DNA from: Leptolyngbya sp. CCY15150
GTDB lineage: Bacteria > Cyanobacteriota > Cyanobacteriia > RECH01
Assembly: GCF_016888135.1 (NCBI RefSeq)
Contig: NZ_JACSWB010000141.1
Span: 1 to 64,000 of the forward strand
Direction of reading: 5' to 3'
Length of the DNA stretch: 64,000 bases
The translations under genes were made by a program, and so were the position numbers. The notes under the pieces were generated by a model. It was not told where the DNA came from and made no database searches. It worked only from the letters and a program-made list of their open reading frames with translations. Positions 31,221 to 43,277 of the stretch are shown in pieces; position 1 is the first letter of the stretch; each line of letters begins with the position of its first letter.

Positions 31221-32792
31221 TTACAGCTGTTGACGGTTATGCCAGACAGCGATCGCTGCTTGATGCACCTGATGCCAAGGCTGAGTTGTGGCTTGGGCTA
31301 CGGCCACACAATCCTCATACTCTGGCTGAGCATTGAGGATTTGACCCTGTTCATCCCGCGCTACCTTAATATGCACCAGATGACCATCCAACGTCACCTG
31401 ATGAAACTCCCGCGCTAGGGCCCGTCGCTGGCAGAGCGATCGCCGTATGCCTAGCGTTGTGGTTTCTCGAAATAAGATTGTCTCGCAGTCCTCCAAGCGA
31501 TAGCTTTTACAGATCACCGTCAGCAATATACCAGGACGAGACTTTTTCATGCCGATCGCTTGGGTAAACACATCCAGCGCCCCTGCAGCAAATAGAGCAT
31601 CAAATACATAGCCAATCGCTTGGGGGTTGAGGTCATCAATCTGAGTTTCAAGAACAGCGATCGCCTCCAGAGATCCACCAGGTAAGGATTCGGTGGATAG
31701 ATCGGGAACTGGATTGGAGACTGGATGAGGATAGGAATCGGGCGATAGGCGCATCTCACGTTGGCAGGCCTGTCCATCATCCCCCAGCCCCCAAGATGGG
31801 GAAGTCGGATTCAAAGTCCCTCTCCCTTCTTGGGAGAGGGATTTAGGGTGAGGGCTGCCAAGGGATGCAGCCTCGGGCGATCGCGTGGGGACAGTATGAA
31901 CGTGAGGCGCTACTGTCGTCTGTTCCTCCGGGGTTTCTCCAAGCCATAGCCGTAAAATATTAGGGATAGATAGCGATCGCCCTCCGGCTCCAAGCCCCAC
32001 GCGCTGCAAAACCATCGGTGGTGGCGGGCCAAATTGGAGGGACAAGGTCGTGGCGATCGCGGCTCCTGTGGGGGTGACCATTTCCCGATCGATGCCATTG
32101 TGGTAAATCGGCACGTGGCGCAGTTCCCAAAGCTTGAGCACCGCCGGAGCAGGAATAGGAATGCGACCATGGGCCGCCCAAACCGTCCCGCCGCCGGTGG
32201 GCAACGCTGAGCAATAAAGCTGATCAATTTTCAGCCAATCTAGCCCCAAACAAGTACCGACAATATCCACTATTGCATCCGTTGCCCCCACTTCATGGAA
32301 CTGCACCTGCTCCGGTGGAATGCCATGCACGGCTCCCTCGGCCTGGGCTAACTGCCGGAAAATTGCCAAACTCCACTGCGTAGGGCGATTGGGCAACTGC
32401 GCTGCCTGAATCATCTGCTCAATCTCTAGCAGGCGGCGGGTGCCGTGGTCGTGGGTAGGGTCAGCATCATGGGTGTGAGCATGATCGTGAGCATGATCGT
32501 GATCATGGGTGTGAGGATGATCGTGAGCGTGGTCAGCATCATGGGTGTGGTTGGGAGGGCGATCATGATCATGGGCAGAGATGGGGGGCTTGAGGAGATC
32601 AACCTGCACCTTCGTCGCCCGCTGGCCATTGTGATTCGCCTCCTCTGCCCGCAGTTGAAATTCATCACCGATGCCCAAACGCTGCAACTGCTCAACCAAA
32701 TACTGCAGCGGCACCCCCGCATCCACCAATGCTCCTAAACACATATCGCCCGACAGTCCTGTCGGGCAATCGAGATACGCCACCTTTGCCAT
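31221..32792 (-). CDS. larC: Nickel-pincer cofactor nickel insertase LarC, with a His-rich insert and an internal repeat
   Basis: 523 residues. The N-terminus AYLDCPTGLSGDMCLGAL and the later HFHEVGATDAIVDIVG-type segment (QVQFHEVGATDAIVDIVGTC), GGGTVWAAHGRIPIPAPA and TPTGAAIATTL identify the LarC family. LarC inserts nickel into the pyridinium-dithiocarboxylate cofactor using CTP. A histidine/aspartate-rich stretch at about 75-120 probably binds nickel. Residues about 310-338 (including SPHPKSLSQEGRGT) are encoded by a dispersed palindromic repeat inserted in frame between the two LarC halves. The last third has the ETQIDDLNPQAIGYV motif. No larB, larE or larA is in the window. Confidence 0.9.
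   Translation of the reverse strand: MAKVAYLDCPTGLSGDMCLGALVDAGVPLQYLVEQLQRLGIGDEFQLRAEEANHNGQRATKVQVDLLKPPISAHDHDRPPNHTHDADHAHDHPHTHDHDHAHDHAHTHDADPTHDHGTRRLLEIEQMIQAAQLPNRPTQWSLAIFRQLAQAEGAVHGIPPEQVQFHEVGATDAIVDIVGTCLGLDWLKIDQLYCSALPTGGGTVWAAHGRIPIPAPAVLKLWELRHVPIYHNGIDREMVTPTGAAIATTLSLQFGPPPPMVLQRVGLGAGGRSLSIPNILRLWLGETPEEQTTVAPHVHTVPTRSPEAASLGSPHPKSLSQEGRGTLNPTSPSWGLGDDGQACQREMRLSPDSYPHPVSNPVPDLSTESLPGGSLEAIAVLETQIDDLNPQAIGYVFDALFAAGALDVFTQAIGMKKSRPGILLTVICKSYRLEDCETILFRETTTLGIRRSLCQRRALAREFHQVTLDGHLVHIKVARDEQGQILNAQPEYEDCVAVAQATTQPWHQVHQAAIAVWHNRQQL
31780..31860 (-). repeat. Dispersed palindromic repeat inserted in frame in larC
   Basis: CCCTCTCCC-ttctt-GGGAGAGGG at 31818-31840 with flanking cccccagcccccaagatggg and tttagggtgagggct. 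The same hairpin type occurs in intergenic DNA at 808-840. Here it stays open in the larC frame and adds about 28 residues at a probable inter-domain linker. Confidence 0.7.
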
Positions 32793-35027: not shown

Positions 35028-35600
35028 TTAGTCCACAGCCTGCAATTCATCTAAGCGAGCCAACACTTCAACGCTGTGAATAGCAGGACGCACGCCTAGG
35101 AAGCGATCGCGTAGGATACCCTCGGGATCAATCACATAGGTATGCCGCAGGGAAACACCGCTCAGCCAAGAACCATAGGCTTTACTCACCGCCCCAGTCG
35201 TATCAGCCAGCAGGGGAAAGGTCAGCCCTTCCGAGTCACAAAATTCTGCGTGGGACGTTACATCATCCACGCTGATGCCCAAAATTTGAGTATGACGATC
35301 TAAATACTTGGGCAAGTCTTGCTGAAACCGCTTGGCTTCCAGGGTGCAGCCCGGTGTGAAGTCTTGGGGATAAAAATAGGCCACCACCCACTGCCCTCGG
35401 TAGTCGGCTAGGGATATCTCACCATCGCCCGTATTGCTCGGTAGGGTGAAGTCTGGGGCTGGGGCATTCAACGTCGGCTGGGGGCCACCCAGGGCAAATG
35501 CTGCGGGCATTCCGCCTAGGAACATACCGAAGGCAAGTAAACTACTAAGCACATAGCCCAGCAGCCGGCGACGAGAAGGGAGTATCTGAGTCACAACCAT
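35028..35600 (-). CDS. Exported peroxiredoxin, PrxQ/BCP type
   Basis: 190 residues. The N-terminus RRRLLGYVLSSLLAFGMFLG followed by PAAFA is a signal peptide, possibly Tat-type, so the mature enzyme should work in the periplasm or thylakoid lumen. The peroxidatic Cys85 lies in DFTPGCTLEAKRF. Typical PrxQ has a second cysteine five residues on (CTxEAC-like); here that site is Lys90, and the only other cysteine is Cys122 in EFCDSEGLTF. The enzyme reduces peroxides, with Cys122 or an external thiol resolving. The transcript probably ends at the hairpin at 34937-34969. Confidence 0.88.
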   Translation of the reverse strand: MVVTQILPSRRRLLGYVLSSLLAFGMFLGGMPAAFALGGPQPTLNAPAPDFTLPSNTGDGEISLADYRGQWVVAYFYPQDFTPGCTLEAKRFQQDLPKYLDRHTQILGISVDDVTSHAEFCDSEGLTFPLLADTTGAVSKAYGSWLSGVSLRHTYVIDPEGILRDRFLGVRPAIHSVEVLARLDELQAVD

Positions 35601-36148: not shown

Positions 36149-39100
36149 GTGACTTCTCAACCCGACCAAATTCAAGCCCTAATCCGCGAAATTGATGGCG
36201 TGCTAAGTAAGGCAAGTCCTCGCTTGCCGTGGGTGATGTCGGCGGAGGCAGCCGAGCAGCGCAACGTGCTAGAGCAAACCCGTCGGTCGTTGCTAGCGCT
36301 TCAGCAGCAAATGTTGGCTGAACCTCCTGCCGCACACTCGTCTCAGCCATCCCCTGCGCTAACTGAGGAATCTGCCCAGCATGTCCTGCAGGCGTTTCTG
36401 CAAGAAATGAGTTACTTGCGCACCAACATGCTGCAGCCCCTGCGGGCCGATATCGATCGGCTCAACCGCGAGCGCGACGCCTTGGTGCAAGATGTGCAGC
36501 AACTCCAAGGCCAGCGCCAGCAAATGGGTCTGCCGGCGGCGGATCAAACATCCATGATCGATAGTTTTCTGAAGGCGTTGATGAATCGTCTCCAGGAAAC
36601 TCTATCTGAGCAAATTGCCCAAACCCTTTCCCAGTATGAGCAGGAGGAGCGATCGCTTCCCGGTTCTCCTGAAGCTGCCGCGTTGCCCGCAGCCGATCTC
36701 ATGCCCTTGTCTCCCAGCCAGCGATTGGCCCGGATTCAACAAACCCAGGCCCGTTCCGATCAGCTTTTGCTGAAGCTCGACGCTACGCTTCAAGTGATCT
36801 TCGAATCCTTGCAGTCCAATATCCAGAGCTATGAAGACTCTCTGTCCCAAGGGCTGGAGAAAATGCATAGCTTAGGACAGCAGGGTGAGTCGATGTTTGC
36901 GGGGCTAGTGAATCGTCTAGCGCAGCAACTGGGTCGTGAGGCCTCGTCCTACCTGCAATCGTCCCTAGAAGCAGAACGGTGGCGATCGCCTGATGCACCA
37001 GCTAACCTACAACCTCGCCCTGCTGAACCACCGGCGACGGGAGATCCTACGTTAGACAATCTATCGGATGAACAGATTGATCGTCTGCTGAACGAGCTGA
37101 ACGGGGGAACTAGCGAAGACGCTCCCGCCAAGCCAGAGCCTCCAGCCAAAACACCCTTTTCGCTGACGGACTTAGTTGGCGATTCAGACGACGACATCAC
37201 CATCTTCCAAATCAGCGAGCGCCATCCTCTTTATACGCCCGAGGATGACGACGAAAAGACGATTATTCAAACCAGGGAAGAGTTTGAAGCCGCTCGGGCA
37301 GCCCGAGAAACCCCCAGTCCAGCGATCGCCTCGAATCTCGATAATCTAGAGTCGGCCCTAGATTGGTTGGAGCACATGGATGAGGATGAACCCACGCCTC
37401 AGGTTTCGACCGAGGGCGTGCCTACACCGGAAGCGATCGCTGCCGACACCGACGATGTCGCGATCGACACACCGGAAACCCTGTACGCCGATGATTTTTA
37501 TCAAAGTTTATTTGGCGAAGATGAAGACGGCTCTCTCACGGAGCGATCGCCTAGCCTGGCGGATGATTTTACGGCCGAGGCCCCAGAAGACCTGGGTGGT
37601 GATGCCACAGATGTCAATGACGTGTCTAACCTTCGCCCGTACCGCTTTGGTCTTGAGGAAGATGAAGTCCTCAATGACGACCTATTTGGTGGATTGTCTG
37701 ACCCGGCTGAGCAACGGGCAACCGAGACCGGCGAGCAAGCTGACCTAGAAGATACTGACCTAGAAGGTAGGGAGGCCAGTGATTCAGACCTAGACCTAAA
37801 CCGTGATGAATCGCTGTCTGGACTATCCACCCAGGCTCTCCAAGATCTCTTCCCAGACAATGAACCGCTGTTTTCAGACTACGACAATAGCCAAGCAGCG
37901 ATCGCCTTGGATGGTGACGAAGAGGAGCGTTTGGGCTTCCTCGACTCCGATGCTCCGATCACAGAGCGCGACTTGGCCCTAGAGGATGATGCTCAAGACA
38001 GCGACTGGAGTGATACCCCTCTGGTTGATCCCGAGCACATGATTACTCGACTCACAGATCTGATTGAACCCAGCGAACTGCCGGCCTTCCTGGATACCAG
38101 CCAAGCGCTTTCAGGCGACGACGATCGCTACATGCCCGCCTCCCCCGACGAAGACCTGCTGGGCGGTGAGGAGTTCGATATCGCCCCCAGTGAGCTGATT
38201 CACATTGACGACACGACCCTCAATCAACTGGAAAACGATTTATCAAGCCTTGAAAATCCAGACTCGCCATTTCCCATTGATCCCAATACTGAGCTGAGTG
38301 CGACCTTAGAGCGCTGGGATGGAGCAGCAGCGCCATGGATGGATGAGCTAGGGCTCGCTGATCCCAACATGCCGGATGCTCGTCTGGATGAGGAGGTCAC
38401 GGAAACGGTTCCAGACGCGGTTGATCAGGCTCGCCCAGAGATGCCCGACGAAGACGCCATGTCCGGTCTAGACTTCGCAGCAGATATGGGGGATGCGCTT
38501 AACTATGATCTGGAGGCAGACCAAAGCAGTCTAGATGAATTCGGTCTAGATGAATTCGGTGACGAAGACCTGGCGGCAGATGAGCATCAACCGGCAGCCA
38601 TGGATGACCAGCCAGACGACGACGTTCGTCCCTTGGATAATCTTGCTGATGTCTGGGCCGCTTTACGAGAAACCCCCTCGGAGCTTGAGGCACCGGCAGC
38701 GTCTCCGGAAGCGTCTGAGGATGCCGCAGAGGGTCTAACCCTTGATGCTATCGGCAATGACTGGGAAGACGCCGAAGACTATCTTTCGTCCGTTGAGCAG
38801 GATCATTCTCCTGACCAAGATGATTCTCCTGCCGATGCAGATCGATCGGCTGATGTGTTCGGCGGTTGGGAGACCGATGCATTCACGGATGACGTCACGG
38901 ATGACGTCACAGATGAAGCAGCCACGGATGCTGGCCGTTCAGAAGGGGCGATCGCTGATCACGAACCTCATTTTCCCGATACCAGTGAGCTGGCGTTTGA
39001 AGACGATGACGCCGCTCTCTTTGGGGCAAGTTTTGACGACGGTGAGGGTGGAATTTTTGACACCTTTGACACAGAAGACCAGCTCTCTGACGATGCTGAA

Positions 39101-40477
39101 GCCCTGTTTGATGCCGATGATGCCCAAGTCCAGACCGTGGATGTGGATGATCTGCTGCTGCCCGATGAGCCGGCTCCAGCGCCAGCATCTCCTGTTGATC
39201 AGCCATCGGTTGACCAAGAAACCCTTCCGGCTGCAGAAACAGCTTGGATAGATGACGATACCCATAACATCGAAGCGTTACTGCTGAACAGTGATGATCC
39301 TGTGCCTGCCGATGATTCCGCAGAAGCGGCTTGGAACGATGCTGATGCCGATACCATCGAGGGTTTACTTCTCAGTAGCGATACCTCAGACGTTGTGGAA
39401 GAAGAGGCGATCGCTGCCCCCGTCGTTGATCCTGAACCCACCTTAGGGGATTGGTTTTTATTTGATGAAGACGCGCCCGATCTGCCTGCAGCCCTCGACG
39501 AGGATGCCCTCATCGAAACGCTGCTGGAAGAAACACCCGAGGACGAAACGCTAGAGGACGAAACGCCCGAAAATCTGGATGAAACGCCCGAGAACCTAGA
39601 CGATGTCTTCGAAACGGTGCAGGATACTTCGTTCATCCCTGAGCCTCACGAAACATCCGCGCCTCCCCCACCGGAACCGGTGGAAGAAACCCTAGCTGAG
39701 CTGTTTTCCGAACCCGAAACCTCTGCGCCGCCCCTTGACCTTGGCGATGAGTTTACCCTCGATACCCTGCTGGAGCGGGTCTTAGATGGAGAAACACCGT
39801 CTGCCGATGCCCTAGACAGGCCATCAGAGATGCCGGCAGCAGCCGAGGATAGCGCCGCCCTGTTTCCTGAAACGGGTGAACCTGAAACGAGCGAAACCTT
39901 AGAGGGCTGGTTTACTGATGACTTGGAGGACACCTCGATGGATGTGGCTCCGACAAGCGATCGCCCCAACCCACCTACCTGGGATGATGATCAGGATGAG
40001 CCGTTCAACGATGACTTAGACAGTATGTTCGGGGATGCCAGCATTCTCGATGAGAACCCCGAGTCGATGGATAGCTTATTTGGCGATTTCGATGACGAGG
40101 TAGCCGACTCTACCCTCAATGACTTCGCCGATGCTTTTGCCGAAGAGGATCAAGAGCCGGTGCCGCAACCACCTGAGGCGGAGACCTCTCTGGATGACTT
40201 ATTTGGAGACATGTCTGCAGATACCGAGGATGGCTTTGGGGAAGCGGCTGAATCGTCTCCATTGTCGAATGCAGAGACTTCTCTGGATGACTTATTTGGC
40301 GATATCCCTGATGATCTGGGTGATAGCCCAGAGCGGTCGGCTGATCTGTCTGCCGATGATCTGTCGGACGATCTGTCTGCGAATCTTGAGACATCACCTC
40401 AATACACCATCGATGACCTCGATGATTTCTTTGGCGCGGAAGACGTCCCCGAGACGCCGGAAAAAAAAAGCCCATGA
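36149..40477 (+). CDS. Very large acidic protein with coiled-coil N-terminus and repeated LFG motifs
   Basis: 1442 residues from a GTG start. About 1-110 and 120-280 are helical and glutamine/leucine-rich (LQQQMLAEPP, EMSYLRTNMLQPLRADIDRL), consistent with coiled coils. From about 290 to the end the chain is dominated by Asp, Glu, Ser, Ala and Pro and is probably disordered. Short motifs of acidic residues followed by LFG or MFG recur: NDDLFGG, DDAALFGA, DSMFGDA, DSLFGDF, then two TSLDDLFGD copies and DDFFGAED near the C-terminus. No enzymatic domain or membrane segment is seen. It overlaps the following Hsp70-like gene by ATGA, and an A9 run at 40461-40469 precedes the junction. A scaffold or client/regulator of that ATPase is a reasonable guess, but no function is known to me. 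Confidence 0.85.
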   Translation: MTSQPDQIQALIREIDGVLSKASPRLPWVMSAEAAEQRNVLEQTRRSLLALQQQMLAEPPAAHSSQPSPALTEESAQHVLQAFLQEMSYLRTNMLQPLRADIDRLNRERDALVQDVQQLQGQRQQMGLPAADQTSMIDSFLKALMNRLQETLSEQIAQTLSQYEQEERSLPGSPEAAALPAADLMPLSPSQRLARIQQTQARSDQLLLKLDATLQVIFESLQSNIQSYEDSLSQGLEKMHSLGQQGESMFAGLVNRLAQQLGREASSYLQSSLEAERWRSPDAPANLQPRPAEPPATGDPTLDNLSDEQIDRLLNELNGGTSEDAPAKPEPPAKTPFSLTDLVGDSDDDITIFQISERHPLYTPEDDDEKTIIQTREEFEAARAARETPSPAIASNLDNLESALDWLEHMDEDEPTPQVSTEGVPTPEAIAADTDDVAIDTPETLYADDFYQSLFGEDEDGSLTERSPSLADDFTAEAPEDLGGDATDVNDVSNLRPYRFGLEEDEVLNDDLFGGLSDPAEQRATETGEQADLEDTDLEGREASDSDLDLNRDESLSGLSTQALQDLFPDNEPLFSDYDNSQAAIALDGDEEERLGFLDSDAPITERDLALEDDAQDSDWSDTPLVDPEHMITRLTDLIEPSELPAFLDTSQALSGDDDRYMPASPDEDLLGGEEFDIAPSELIHIDDTTLNQLENDLSSLENPDSPFPIDPNTELSATLERWDGAAAPWMDELGLADPNMPDARLDEEVTETVPDAVDQARPEMPDEDAMSGLDFAADMGDALNYDLEADQSSLDEFGLDEFGDEDLAADEHQPAAMDDQPDDDVRPLDNLADVWAALRETPSELEAPAASPEASEDAAEGLTLDAIGNDWEDAEDYLSSVEQDHSPDQDDSPADADRSADVFGGWETDAFTDDVTDDVTDEAATDAGRSEGAIADHEPHFPDTSELAFEDDDAALFGASFDDGEGGIFDTFDTEDQLSDDAEALFDADDAQVQTVDVDDLLLPDEPAPAPASPVDQPSVDQETLPAAETAWIDDDTHNIEALLLNSDDPVPADDSAEAAWNDADADTIEGLLLSSDTSDVVEEEAIAAPVVDPEPTLGDWFLFDEDAPDLPAALDEDALIETLLEETPEDETLEDETPENLDETPENLDDVFETVQDTSFIPEPHETSAPPPPEPVEETLAELFSEPETSAPPLDLGDEFTLDTLLERVLDGETPSADALDRPSEMPAAAEDSAALFPETGEPETSETLEGWFTDDLEDTSMDVAPTSDRPNPPTWDDDQDEPFNDDLDSMFGDASILDENPESMDSLFGDFDDEVADSTLNDFADAFAEEDQEPVPQPPEAETSLDDLFGDMSADTEDGFGEAAESSPLSNAETSLDDLFGDIPDDLGDSPERSADLSADDLSDDLSANLETSPQYTIDDLDDFFGAEDVPETPEKKSP
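40461..40477 (+). promoter_or_regulatory. Slippery A9 run and ATGA stop-start overlap
   Basis: Nine A residues (40461-40469) are read GAA AAA AAA AGC in the upstream frame, which contains the A_AAA_AAA heptamer type. The stop TGA at 40475-40477 overlaps the ATG at 40474. The downstream gene is in the -1 frame, and that frame has no stop between the run and the ATG. No clear ribosome site precedes the ATG. Confidence 0.55.
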
Positions 40478-42012
40478 GGCAAGCTATTACCTGGATGGGC
40501 GATCGCTCTCCCCTAGACCATGATTCCCCCTGGTTTCTAGCCATCGACTTGGGTAGCACCCAACTCTCGGCGATGCTCGTCAATCGCCAAACCCGCACCC
40601 TGCACCCTATCTACTGGTTTAGCGTTTCCGCCCAGGCGGGAGCCTCCAAGTCCTTTGGGCTGCCCACCTCGGTCTATTTATCGATGACGACCCCGGCATT
40701 GTCCCCAGCCAGCGATCGCTCCACCGAGCCACAGATCACCCCACTGGCGGTAGGTGCCAAAGCCGATGAACTCGCCGATCTCAATCCAGCCACGGCTGGT
40801 AACCCGCACCCTGCTGAAGGCAATCAGCACCAGCGCATGTTGCTGCGCCATCTGAAAGCCCATGTCCTGAATCCCGCCGAGCACCTTAAGGAGCGCGATC
40901 TACAGGCGGCCTGCAGCATTGTGCTGGCCACCCTCAGCGGTTTTCGCGGCGATCTGCTCTCACCAGCCACGGTTCAATGTGGGGCAGAAGGATTGACCTC
41001 GGGGGTAGTGCAGACGGTGCTGAGGCAGTTAGGTGGCGTTCTAGTCAGCAGCCCGCTCACGGTGGATGAAACCTATGAGCGATCGCTCTGTGAGGCCATC
41101 CTCCAGGCTAAACTCGTGCCGTCTCGTCAGTCCATTGGCGTGATCAACGATGGCAGCGCCCTCCTCGCGGCCCAGCGCTGGTTTATCGAGCCTGCCAATC
41201 CGCCGGTGACAGCATCGACGTCATCCTTTAGTGTGGTTTGTTCTACCGGGGCGATCGCGACGGAACTGATTGCCTTGCAGCATGACCAAGTCATCCAGGT
41301 TCAGGCCTATCCCTATGGGGATCAGGCCATTCAGCAAGATGTGATTCACCTGCTGCTGGATAGTCTGACGACCTCCGCCAATATTGCCGTTGCGCCCTAT
41401 GGCCCCGACCTCGATGCTGCCCGCCCGCCCTTGCTGACGGCGTTCCTCTCCCCTAGGGATCAAGAAGCGATCGCTCAGGACGGTCTAGCGGCCTGCCTAA
41501 CCTATGACCTTGATGCCCTGCCCAGACTAGGCCAGGTAGACGCCAGCCAACGCCAGGTCTGGCAAACTCACCTAGATACCACGGCTCTAGGGCGATCGCT
41601 GCAGCAGCTTGCCCAGCGCATCTTGCGATCGCTCAGCGACCATCCAGTCCTGCAGCTTCAGGTGGGCAGCTACGCCGGGTTGATGACGCGTCAAACCTTG
41701 GAGCATCACATTCTTTGGCCCTACCTGCACAATCTTGATCCTGTGGTCGTGCGCTTGCTGGAAGAGCTGGCCATGCCCCCCCAAGCCATCGAGCAGGTGA
41801 TCTGCGGCGGCTTGCTGTATCACCATGGGGCGATCGCCCGCTGGCTCCAAGAAAAGTTTCCCCATGCCCAAGTGGAGGTGGCTCGCATTGCCCCCCCTCG
41901 CGTCATGCCCGCCCTCGCTTCTCCCCAGGGATGCGATCGCCCTAGCCCCATCGTCTACGGCATGGGGATTGTGTTGCTATCCCCATCACCTTCCCTAGAG
42001 ACCCAGACTTAG
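40474..42012 (+). CDS. Hsp70/actin-fold ATPase-like protein without substrate-binding domain
   Basis: 512 residues. WFLAIDLGSTQLSAMLVNRQ at about 21-40 is a phosphate-1 loop of the Hsp70/actin/sugar-kinase fold. IGVINDGSALLAAQRWF near 215 resembles the connect-1 region (NEPTAAALA in DnaK). FSVVCSTGAIATELIAL near 255 takes the phosphate-2 place, where DnaK has DLGGGTFDVS, so this loop is atypical. VICGGLLYHHGAIARWLQEKF near 450 would be the adenosine loop. The C-terminal peptide-binding domain of DnaK is absent. It overlaps the acidic-protein gene by four bases, so the two are coexpressed. ATP hydrolysis is unproven because of the odd phosphate-2 loop. Confidence 0.75.
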   Translation: MRQAITWMGDRSPLDHDSPWFLAIDLGSTQLSAMLVNRQTRTLHPIYWFSVSAQAGASKSFGLPTSVYLSMTTPALSPASDRSTEPQITPLAVGAKADELADLNPATAGNPHPAEGNQHQRMLLRHLKAHVLNPAEHLKERDLQAACSIVLATLSGFRGDLLSPATVQCGAEGLTSGVVQTVLRQLGGVLVSSPLTVDETYERSLCEAILQAKLVPSRQSIGVINDGSALLAAQRWFIEPANPPVTASTSSFSVVCSTGAIATELIALQHDQVIQVQAYPYGDQAIQQDVIHLLLDSLTTSANIAVAPYGPDLDAARPPLLTAFLSPRDQEAIAQDGLAACLTYDLDALPRLGQVDASQRQVWQTHLDTTALGRSLQQLAQRILRSLSDHPVLQLQVGSYAGLMTRQTLEHHILWPYLHNLDPVVVRLLEELAMPPQAIEQVICGGLLYHHGAIARWLQEKFPHAQVEVARIAPPRVMPALASPQGCDRPSPIVYGMGIVLLSPSPSLETQT

Positions 42013-42815
42013 GTTTCCGACGTAGGAGATGTTTTCCCGAGGAGAGGCGCTAGGTAGGCCACCAAGGCTCCAAGGGTAAATCCTGCCACGTTTCGTAAAA
42101 CCGGCAGCCAGTCAGGCGTACGGGTTACCACGGGCCCCAGACCGAAGGCGATGAACAGAATGCCCCAGAGCGGCGAAAAAATGAGCGCCCACTGCCATGC
42201 AAAGGGCTGCCCTTCCTGTCGAGGCTGGGCTGCAAAACCGAGAACCACCCCGCCAAGAATAGAGGTAATCAGAGTCAAAATCCACTGCTCCCTAGGTAGC
42301 CCTGGCACCACCTGACAACCACCTCGTCGTAGGCAGACCTGAATGGATTCTAGCGCCGAGATGATGGAACGATCTTCGCCATTGTCTCGCACAAAAAACT
42401 GATTGCCGTAGCGGGTTTGTAGCTCAATCCAAAAGGTGCGGGGCAGCAGGTCATACAGATCATCGCCGACGCTAAAGTTCAGCAAGTTTCCGCCCCGAGG
42501 ATCCGCCACCAGCAGCACACTGCGTTGATCTAAACCCCAAAAATCTTTGACCGATCGACCGGGGGTGCGATCAAACTGCGTCAACACCCGCAGCTTCCAT
42601 CCCGTTTCTGACTCAAAGGCCGATAGGGCTTGATCAAGTTCGTCTTGTTGAACACTAGCCAGTGAATCCGCTAGGTCAATGACGTTGGTGGGAGCCTCTG
42701 GCAACAAATCAGGATTTTCATAGGCATGGGCTGTTGGAGCGATCGCCCAGCTACAAAGAATGAGAACAACGGTGGCGCAGAGAACACCAATCGGGCGGAA
42801 GGCAGCATGAATCAT
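42009..42815 (-). CDS. psb32: TPM-domain photosystem II protein, Psb32-like
   Basis: 268 residues from ATG 42815 (MIHAAFRPIGVLC), which gives a normal signal peptide ending SWAIAPTAHA; a longer frame adds 29 basic residues that do not fit export. The mature N-terminal part is a TPM domain (NVIDLADSLASVQQDELDQA, GWKLRVLTQFDRTPGRSV). A C-terminal membrane pair follows (ILTLITSILGGVVLGF, WALIFSPLWGILFIAF). This matches cyanobacterial Psb32, a thylakoid protein that protects PSII or speeds its repair. Its stop overlaps the stop of the convergent Hsp70-like gene by four bases. Confidence 0.85.
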   Translation of the reverse strand: MIHAAFRPIGVLCATVVLILCSWAIAPTAHAYENPDLLPEAPTNVIDLADSLASVQQDELDQALSAFESETGWKLRVLTQFDRTPGRSVKDFWGLDQRSVLLVADPRGGNLLNFSVGDDLYDLLPRTFWIELQTRYGNQFFVRDNGEDRSIISALESIQVCLRRGGCQVVPGLPREQWILTLITSILGGVVLGFAAQPRQEGQPFAWQWALIFSPLWGILFIAFGLGPVVTRTPDWLPVLRNVAGFTLGALVAYLAPLLGKTSPTSET

Positions 42816-43277
42816 GGGTATTTTTAAAGCAAAAAGGTGCGAAAACAGGGCCAGCCTCAAACCAAAGGAACGAGATCGGCCCAGCCGTGACCGGACTAGC
42901 AAACAATGTACCGAGCAAGATCAACGCTGTTGAGTTGTCCATGGGCGATCGCAGATTAGAAAACCTGCTCTCTACGCCCAAGCCATCTTCGCGCATCAGG
43001 AGACGGGCGTCGTCACCTCGGTAACATGAACCGTCGTCAACCCGGATCTTTACACTTGTTTACCTGATTCTAATACTAAAGTTCCTTCGAGGGGTGCGTC
43101 AATTCTCGAAAGAACGTGAGTTCGATGACGTTAGAAAGCCAGAAACCCCTGCTCTTTGGGCAATGACCGACATGTTCAGGCTGAACTAGCCCAGCCCATA
43201 TCTCATCCTTCCACCAGCTCAAGATGAACGCAGCGGTGGATCATCTCCGTCGAACGCATCTTCAAACGAGGTGTCTG
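42816..43277. other. Gene-free 462-base region
   Basis: Upstream of psb32 and downstream of the LCP gene. The only long frame is the rejected N-terminal extension of psb32. No RNA or repeat was recognised. Confidence 0.45.

Follow-up and report, generated by a model that had tools for sequence, protein, structure and literature searches.

To our knowledge, apart from dnaX and a few secretion genes, chromosomal genes rarely show conserved slippage. The product of dnaX is a clamp-loader subunit of DNA polymerase III, and its -1 ribosomal frameshift in Escherichia coli is stimulated by an SD sequence and a hairpin. In Thermus thermophilus, dnaX undergoes transcriptional slippage on a run of nine A (A9), and dnaX genes elsewhere that carry A10 were predicted to behave alike (PMC3711429); the same study takes a non-conserved direction of shift in transposases as a sign of transcriptional slippage. 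Slippage on A8 to A10 was described for IS-element transposases of Deinococcus and Nostoc (PMC1088944). In Citrobacter rodentium tssM1, an A11 run gives 20-25% slippage and yields a truncated and a full-length protein, both of which are needed, and poly-A transcriptional frameshifting was reported in Citrobacter and in tssM3 of Yersinia (PMC4256274).

Here, we analyzed a stretch of 64,000 nucleotides from Leptolyngbya sp. CCY15150 (the window), in which two ORFs meet at an A9 run (Table 1); one copy of this locus was found in the genome. The letters around the run are ...ccG AAAAAAAAA GCCCATGAGG..., and direct reading bore out the preliminary description, which had placed nine A 5 bases before the stop of the upstream gene in phase GAA AAA AAA AGC. 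ORF 2 indeed lies in the -1 frame relative to ORF 1 and is open from upstream of A9, with no stop between the run and its ATG, and a slip would give the proposed product of about 1950 residues. As had also been claimed, there is no clear ribosome site for ORF 2; we found no SD-like motif ahead of the ATG at 40474. A9 is the sole A or T run of at least nine in the window. Its presence is no more than mildly unusual when the window is considered by itself, because a first-order Markov model gives an expectation of about 0.24 A runs of at least nine on the + strand; since the run is conserved in relatives, it is not a product of chance.

We interpret A9 as a programmed slippage site, used chiefly by RNA polymerase, through which one gene would give two isoforms, in the manner of dnaX (gamma/tau) and Citrobacter tssM1, and we assign this reading a probability of about 0.72. 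The polymerase would stutter on the run and produce mRNAs of varying A number. Transcripts with nine A would be translated to the TGA after the run, yielding the coiled-coil/acidic protein alone (about 1442 residues), and those that have gained one A or lost two would be read into ORF 2 to yield the fusion, whose C-terminal part is an Hsp70-NBD-like domain. Ribosomes slipping by -1 on A_AAA_AAA would make an almost identical product and may contribute to its formation. From the comparisons below, we infer the occurrence and level of slippage, the use of both isoforms, and their co-assembly via the coiled coil; a plausible picture would be a coiled-coil scaffold with the Hsp70-like domain on some of its subunits.

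Table 1. Features of the window discussed in the text
Feature	Position	Strand	Description
LarC (nickel pincer cofactor protein)	31221-32792	-	Uninterrupted 523-codon ORF; matches LarC1 and LarC2 models
PrxQ-like peroxiredoxin gene	35028-35600	-	Upstream of the locus
ORF 1	36149-40477	+	1442 aa, GTG start; coiled-coil N-terminus, then long acidic low-complexity linker
A9 run	40461-40469	+	Candidate slippage site; phase GAA AAA AAA AGC CCA TGA, read directly
ATG of ORF 2	40474-40476	+	Possible re-initiation start; overlaps the TGA as ATGA
TGA	40475-40477	+	Ends the unshifted ORF 1 product; 5 nt past A9, read directly
ORF 2	40474-42012	+	512 aa; Hsp70-NBD/actin-fold domain; -1 frame relative to ORF 1
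297-codon ORF	42009-42902	-	TTG start; convergent with ORF 2, sharing the final 4 nt of the latter

Scans of the ORF 1 and ORF 2 proteins against Pfam and NCBIfam gave no match. The conserved part of ORF 1 is the N-terminal coiled-coil region (about residues 1-280), which shares 94-96% identity with congeners and 30-62% with distant orthologues. Searches with it returned scattered coiled-coil matches only. The region was modelled as long helices with a pTM of 0.31, and the arrangement of the predicted helices is therefore not given by the model. Within the window's genus, dN/dS was 0.17-0.18 for ORF 1.

The family profile has 632 positions, of which ORF 2 spans about 1-495, and the C-terminal part (about 130 positions, the last fifth) is missing. 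Its AlphaFold model (pLDDT 77) is predicted to have the two-lobed Hsp70/actin nucleotide-binding fold: a Foldseek search gave an E value of 3.9e-13, and VIA-align superposed the model on DnaK chain 9a5j_A with a Z of 26.1 (338 aligned residues, rmsd 3.6) and on an Mbl (MreB-like) chain with a Z of 25.1. By sequence, the window's protein did not reach the cut-off of Pfam PF00012 (Hsp70), which gave weak matches, at best E 0.0044, in nine of the 22 family members, and relatives gave weak PilM, HSP70, and BcrAD matches only. The family keeps the phosphate-1 motif DxG(T/S)T and has a GG adenosine-type motif. In Hsp70 proteins, phosphate-2 reads DLGGGT and connect-1 carries a glutamate; in the window, phosphate-2 is CSTGA (SAGA-like across the family), and the connect-1 glutamate is replaced by N in the window's genus, so that an intact set of phosphate-1, phosphate-2, and connecting motifs is absent from this ORF 2. 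The earlier term "ATPase" thus stands as far as the Hsp70-NBD/actin-like fold is concerned, but because the phosphate-2 and connecting motifs are degenerate, hydrolysis is unproven, and "Hsp70/actin-fold domain" is the better name. The dN/dS of ORF 2 within the genus was 0.10-0.12, indicating purifying selection. Despite these low values, the branch leading to the domain of this genus is long, at 2.55 changes per column, a pattern that points to rapid divergence in the past and constraint now.

Several observations concern the surroundings. Among 16 loci (15 other genomes and the window), about ten (L160, L161, L163, and L166-L172) pair the gene divergently with a Crp-family regulator, and a membrane protein and a gene of the CobT family come next. 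The window is without this neighbourhood and has the PrxQ-like gene upstream instead, as in L164. We considered the neighbourhood as a clue to the role of the gene, and no firm function follows from it. The 297-codon ORF that converges on ORF 2 had no NCBIfam match. The window also encodes LarC, of a family that we take to be DUF111; because the gene is one uninterrupted ORF, the fused form is present here. DUF111 is named among families with new programmed frameshifts in PMC3711429.

To place the junction in a wider context, we compared orthologues. The two congeners both retain the exact A9, its phase, the TGA, and the ATG in the same ATGA overlap, at a synonymous divergence from the window (dS) of 0.46-0.78; the identity of the run in three congeneric species is weak evidence by itself, because it contains few synonymous sites. 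Across Cyanobacteriia, the domain profile matched in 212 of 388 genomes, and full loci were taken from about 100 genomes, giving 101 loci in the run tally. The domain was placed with the profile of alignment A1, and the N-terminal region by means of a second profile, which was grown from ORF 1. In the 1.7 kb that precede the domain, the 101 loci carry 65 runs of A9 to A11 (12 A9, 49 A10, and four A11), together with no A8 and one A7. The background of A runs was measured on 758 kb of loci, and on the same strand outside this 1.7-kb stretch (about 597 kb of the same loci), A runs did not exceed eight. A distribution that peaks at A10 and has no A8 at all is not a random tail. When 30 more genomes were included, most of them from families or genera new to the sample, ten loci with A9 to A11 were gained. 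By this comparison, the run is retained at the same place in most of the cyanobacterial groups examined. The earlier proposal to compare run length and phase in orthologues thus came out in its favour, with the run intact and in phase in the congeners and A9 to A11 present in dozens of distant orthologues.

The run follows the split arrangement closely. Among loci with the two ORFs in different frames, 40 of 42 carry it, mostly near the end of the first ORF. Permanently fused loci without the run comprise all frame-readable f12 loci examined, the f23 locus that was examined fully, and part of f32. In L176, L184, L189, L191, and L197, the domain forms a distinct gene downstream, with a start of its own, and there is no A run of at least nine. 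Within family f19, genus g37 (L081) has A9. L084 and L200 of the same family have AAGAAGGAATGA in place of the run, with lysines coded as AAG, an SD, and an ATGA overlap. This family appears to have switched between slippage (g37) and translational coupling (L084 and L200), and since the latter encode their lysines as AAG, the presence of lysines does not by itself account for the homopolymer. Loci with extra frame breaks (L086, L087, L114, L118, L146, and L147) and one that is split far from the domain (L126) were not relied on.

That either coupling or shifting is needed for translation of ORF 2, as the preliminary description held, still applies, and for the window's genus ATGA coupling is possible. 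The two genes could thus be ordinary overlapping cistrons, with ORF 2 made by coupled re-initiation at the ATGA and the A run incidental in this genus. The overlap is present in all three species of the genus, in two f19 genera the junction carries an SD and an ATGA but no A run, and several lineages have a separate downstream gene. We nevertheless regard this explanation as doubtful. No SD precedes position 40474, and the lineages in which coupling is clear have lost the homopolymer, whereas the window's genus retains it like its run-bearing relatives. Most split relatives, moreover, have no ATG at this place: 24 of the 40 split loci lack one between the run and the domain. Seven lack any ATG, GTG, or TTG in the open stretch before the domain, which makes fusion the only plausible route to the domain in those loci. 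In the window's genus, ORF 2 could also be made separately by re-initiation at the ATGA, and both routes may operate.

A programmed -1 ribosomal frameshift of the dnaX type on A_AAA_AAA or A_AAA_AAG, without polymerase slippage, is unlikely. The in-phase heptamer is present in the window and its congeners together with a downstream frame at -1, and -1 is the commonest split relation in the family (29 run-bearing loci). Such a mechanism calls for -1 throughout the family; instead, relative to the N-terminal ORF, the domain lies at +1 in 11 run-bearing loci, seven of them without other frame breaks, and in frame 0 in 19. A ribosomal -1 shift would be unable to make the domain in the +1 loci, whereas insertion or loss of A by the polymerase could serve all three relations. 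Over the 40 split loci, predicted RNA structure downstream of the run had a mean z of -0.36, indicating no recurrent structure (z 0.03 at the window's junction), and an SD-like motif before the run occurs in a minority, with no consistency. Two loci, L082 and L148, have an unusually stable predicted structure in the 70 nt immediately after the run (z -4.5 and -5.3), unlike the other 38. Selection for 9-11 A also exceeds what a heptamer needs. Taken together, the non-conserved direction of shift, the A9 to A11 length, and the lack of recurrent RNA structure favour polymerase slippage over a dnaX-type shift. These loci combine a run of at least nine A at the frame junction, its retention by evolution, and a variable direction, which are three marks of a poly-A transcriptional slippage cassette, whose mRNAs would vary in A number.

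The position of stop codons is consistent with a two-product design. If one A is missing relative to the fusion frame, translation would end within 13 nt at 42 of the 53 loci, compared with 20% for control positions taken from the same linkers (binomial p 8e-20, a value not drawn from independent data, because the loci share ancestry). The early stop is common in all three frame classes and lies farther off in f32 (frame 0). The frame one A longer than the fusion frame showed no such excess. Since the excess is confined to the one-A-short frame, a clean short product appears to be a kept feature.

Phase variation, in which changes of run length in the DNA would toggle the fusion between cells, is very improbable. 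Three frame states do exist among species, and tracts of such length can mutate by replication slippage, as stated in PMC3711429. Run length, however, does not vary within a clade: it is A10 in g54 and throughout the run-bearing f32 loci, and the window's genus has A9. Nor does frame class track run length: each class is mostly A10, -1 is found with A9, A10, and A11, and the close sisters L116 (+1) and L117 (-1), in one genus, both have A10. We rejected phase variation on these two grounds. A pseudogene or a sequencing or assembly artefact is hardly credible and was likewise rejected: homopolymers are error-prone and some loci, including those of the window and its congeners, come from fragmented assemblies, but the run is identical in three separately assembled genomes, the same arrangement is found in the single-contig genomes L065, L068, L069, and L078, and ORF 2 has the low dN/dS given above.

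Programmed slippage leading to fusion is thus strongly supported for the gene family by the orthologue comparison and is likely for the window. Of the two forms named at the outset, the dnaX-type ribosomal one is less likely than transcript slippage. On the domain tree, a quick tree with some long branches, the frame class changed at least ten times among run-bearing loci while the run was retained. For the class as a whole, the evidence leans towards polymerase slippage on A10 having been retained across much of Cyanobacteriia as a two-isoform device in a cellular, non-mobile gene. This slippage would be frequent enough for the frame relation to drift freely among 0, +1, and -1, and would have been replaced several times by permanent fusion or by separate cistrons.

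If so, lineages with slippage, fusion, and separated genes stand side by side and offer a natural experiment on the origin, drift, and loss of slippage sites. Depending on the species, annotation is likely to show the gene as a fusion, as a pair of proteins, or as a frameshifted gene, and this uncharacterised Hsp70-like protein probably works as a defined mixture of both isoforms. Our literature searches turned up no account of the gene or the site for cyanobacteria, although it may be among the clusters that PMC3711429 leaves unlisted.

Compared with the nucleotide-binding domain of Hsp70/DnaK and with MreB, the ORF 2 family shares the predicted fold (Z 24-26), phosphate-1, and the GG adenosine-type motif, but identity is 12-16%, SAGA or STGA stands for DLGGGT, and no substrate-binding domain has been shown in the family. 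The window resembles E. coli dnaX (A_AAA_AAG) in its in-phase A-rich heptamer and differs from it in that stimulators were not found to recur across the cyanobacterial loci, which include +1 and 0 orthologues. With IS transposases, the family has in common putative poly-A slippage and a direction that in some transposase families is not conserved; those are mobile elements, whereas this is a chromosomal gene without transposase similarity. Thermus dnaX, as described in PMC3711429, is an unrelated gene with an A9-A10 run, two isoforms, and both fused and split ORF organisations. In tssM1, as here, poly-A lies shortly before an early stop, and one cellular gene gives two products, as would the gene described here. 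That protein is unrelated and its slippage was demonstrated experimentally; the cyanobacterial case, known from sequence alone, is class-wide and has three frame relations. Poly-A slippage itself was already known, and what stands out here is the breadth of its conservation together with the drift of the frame relation.
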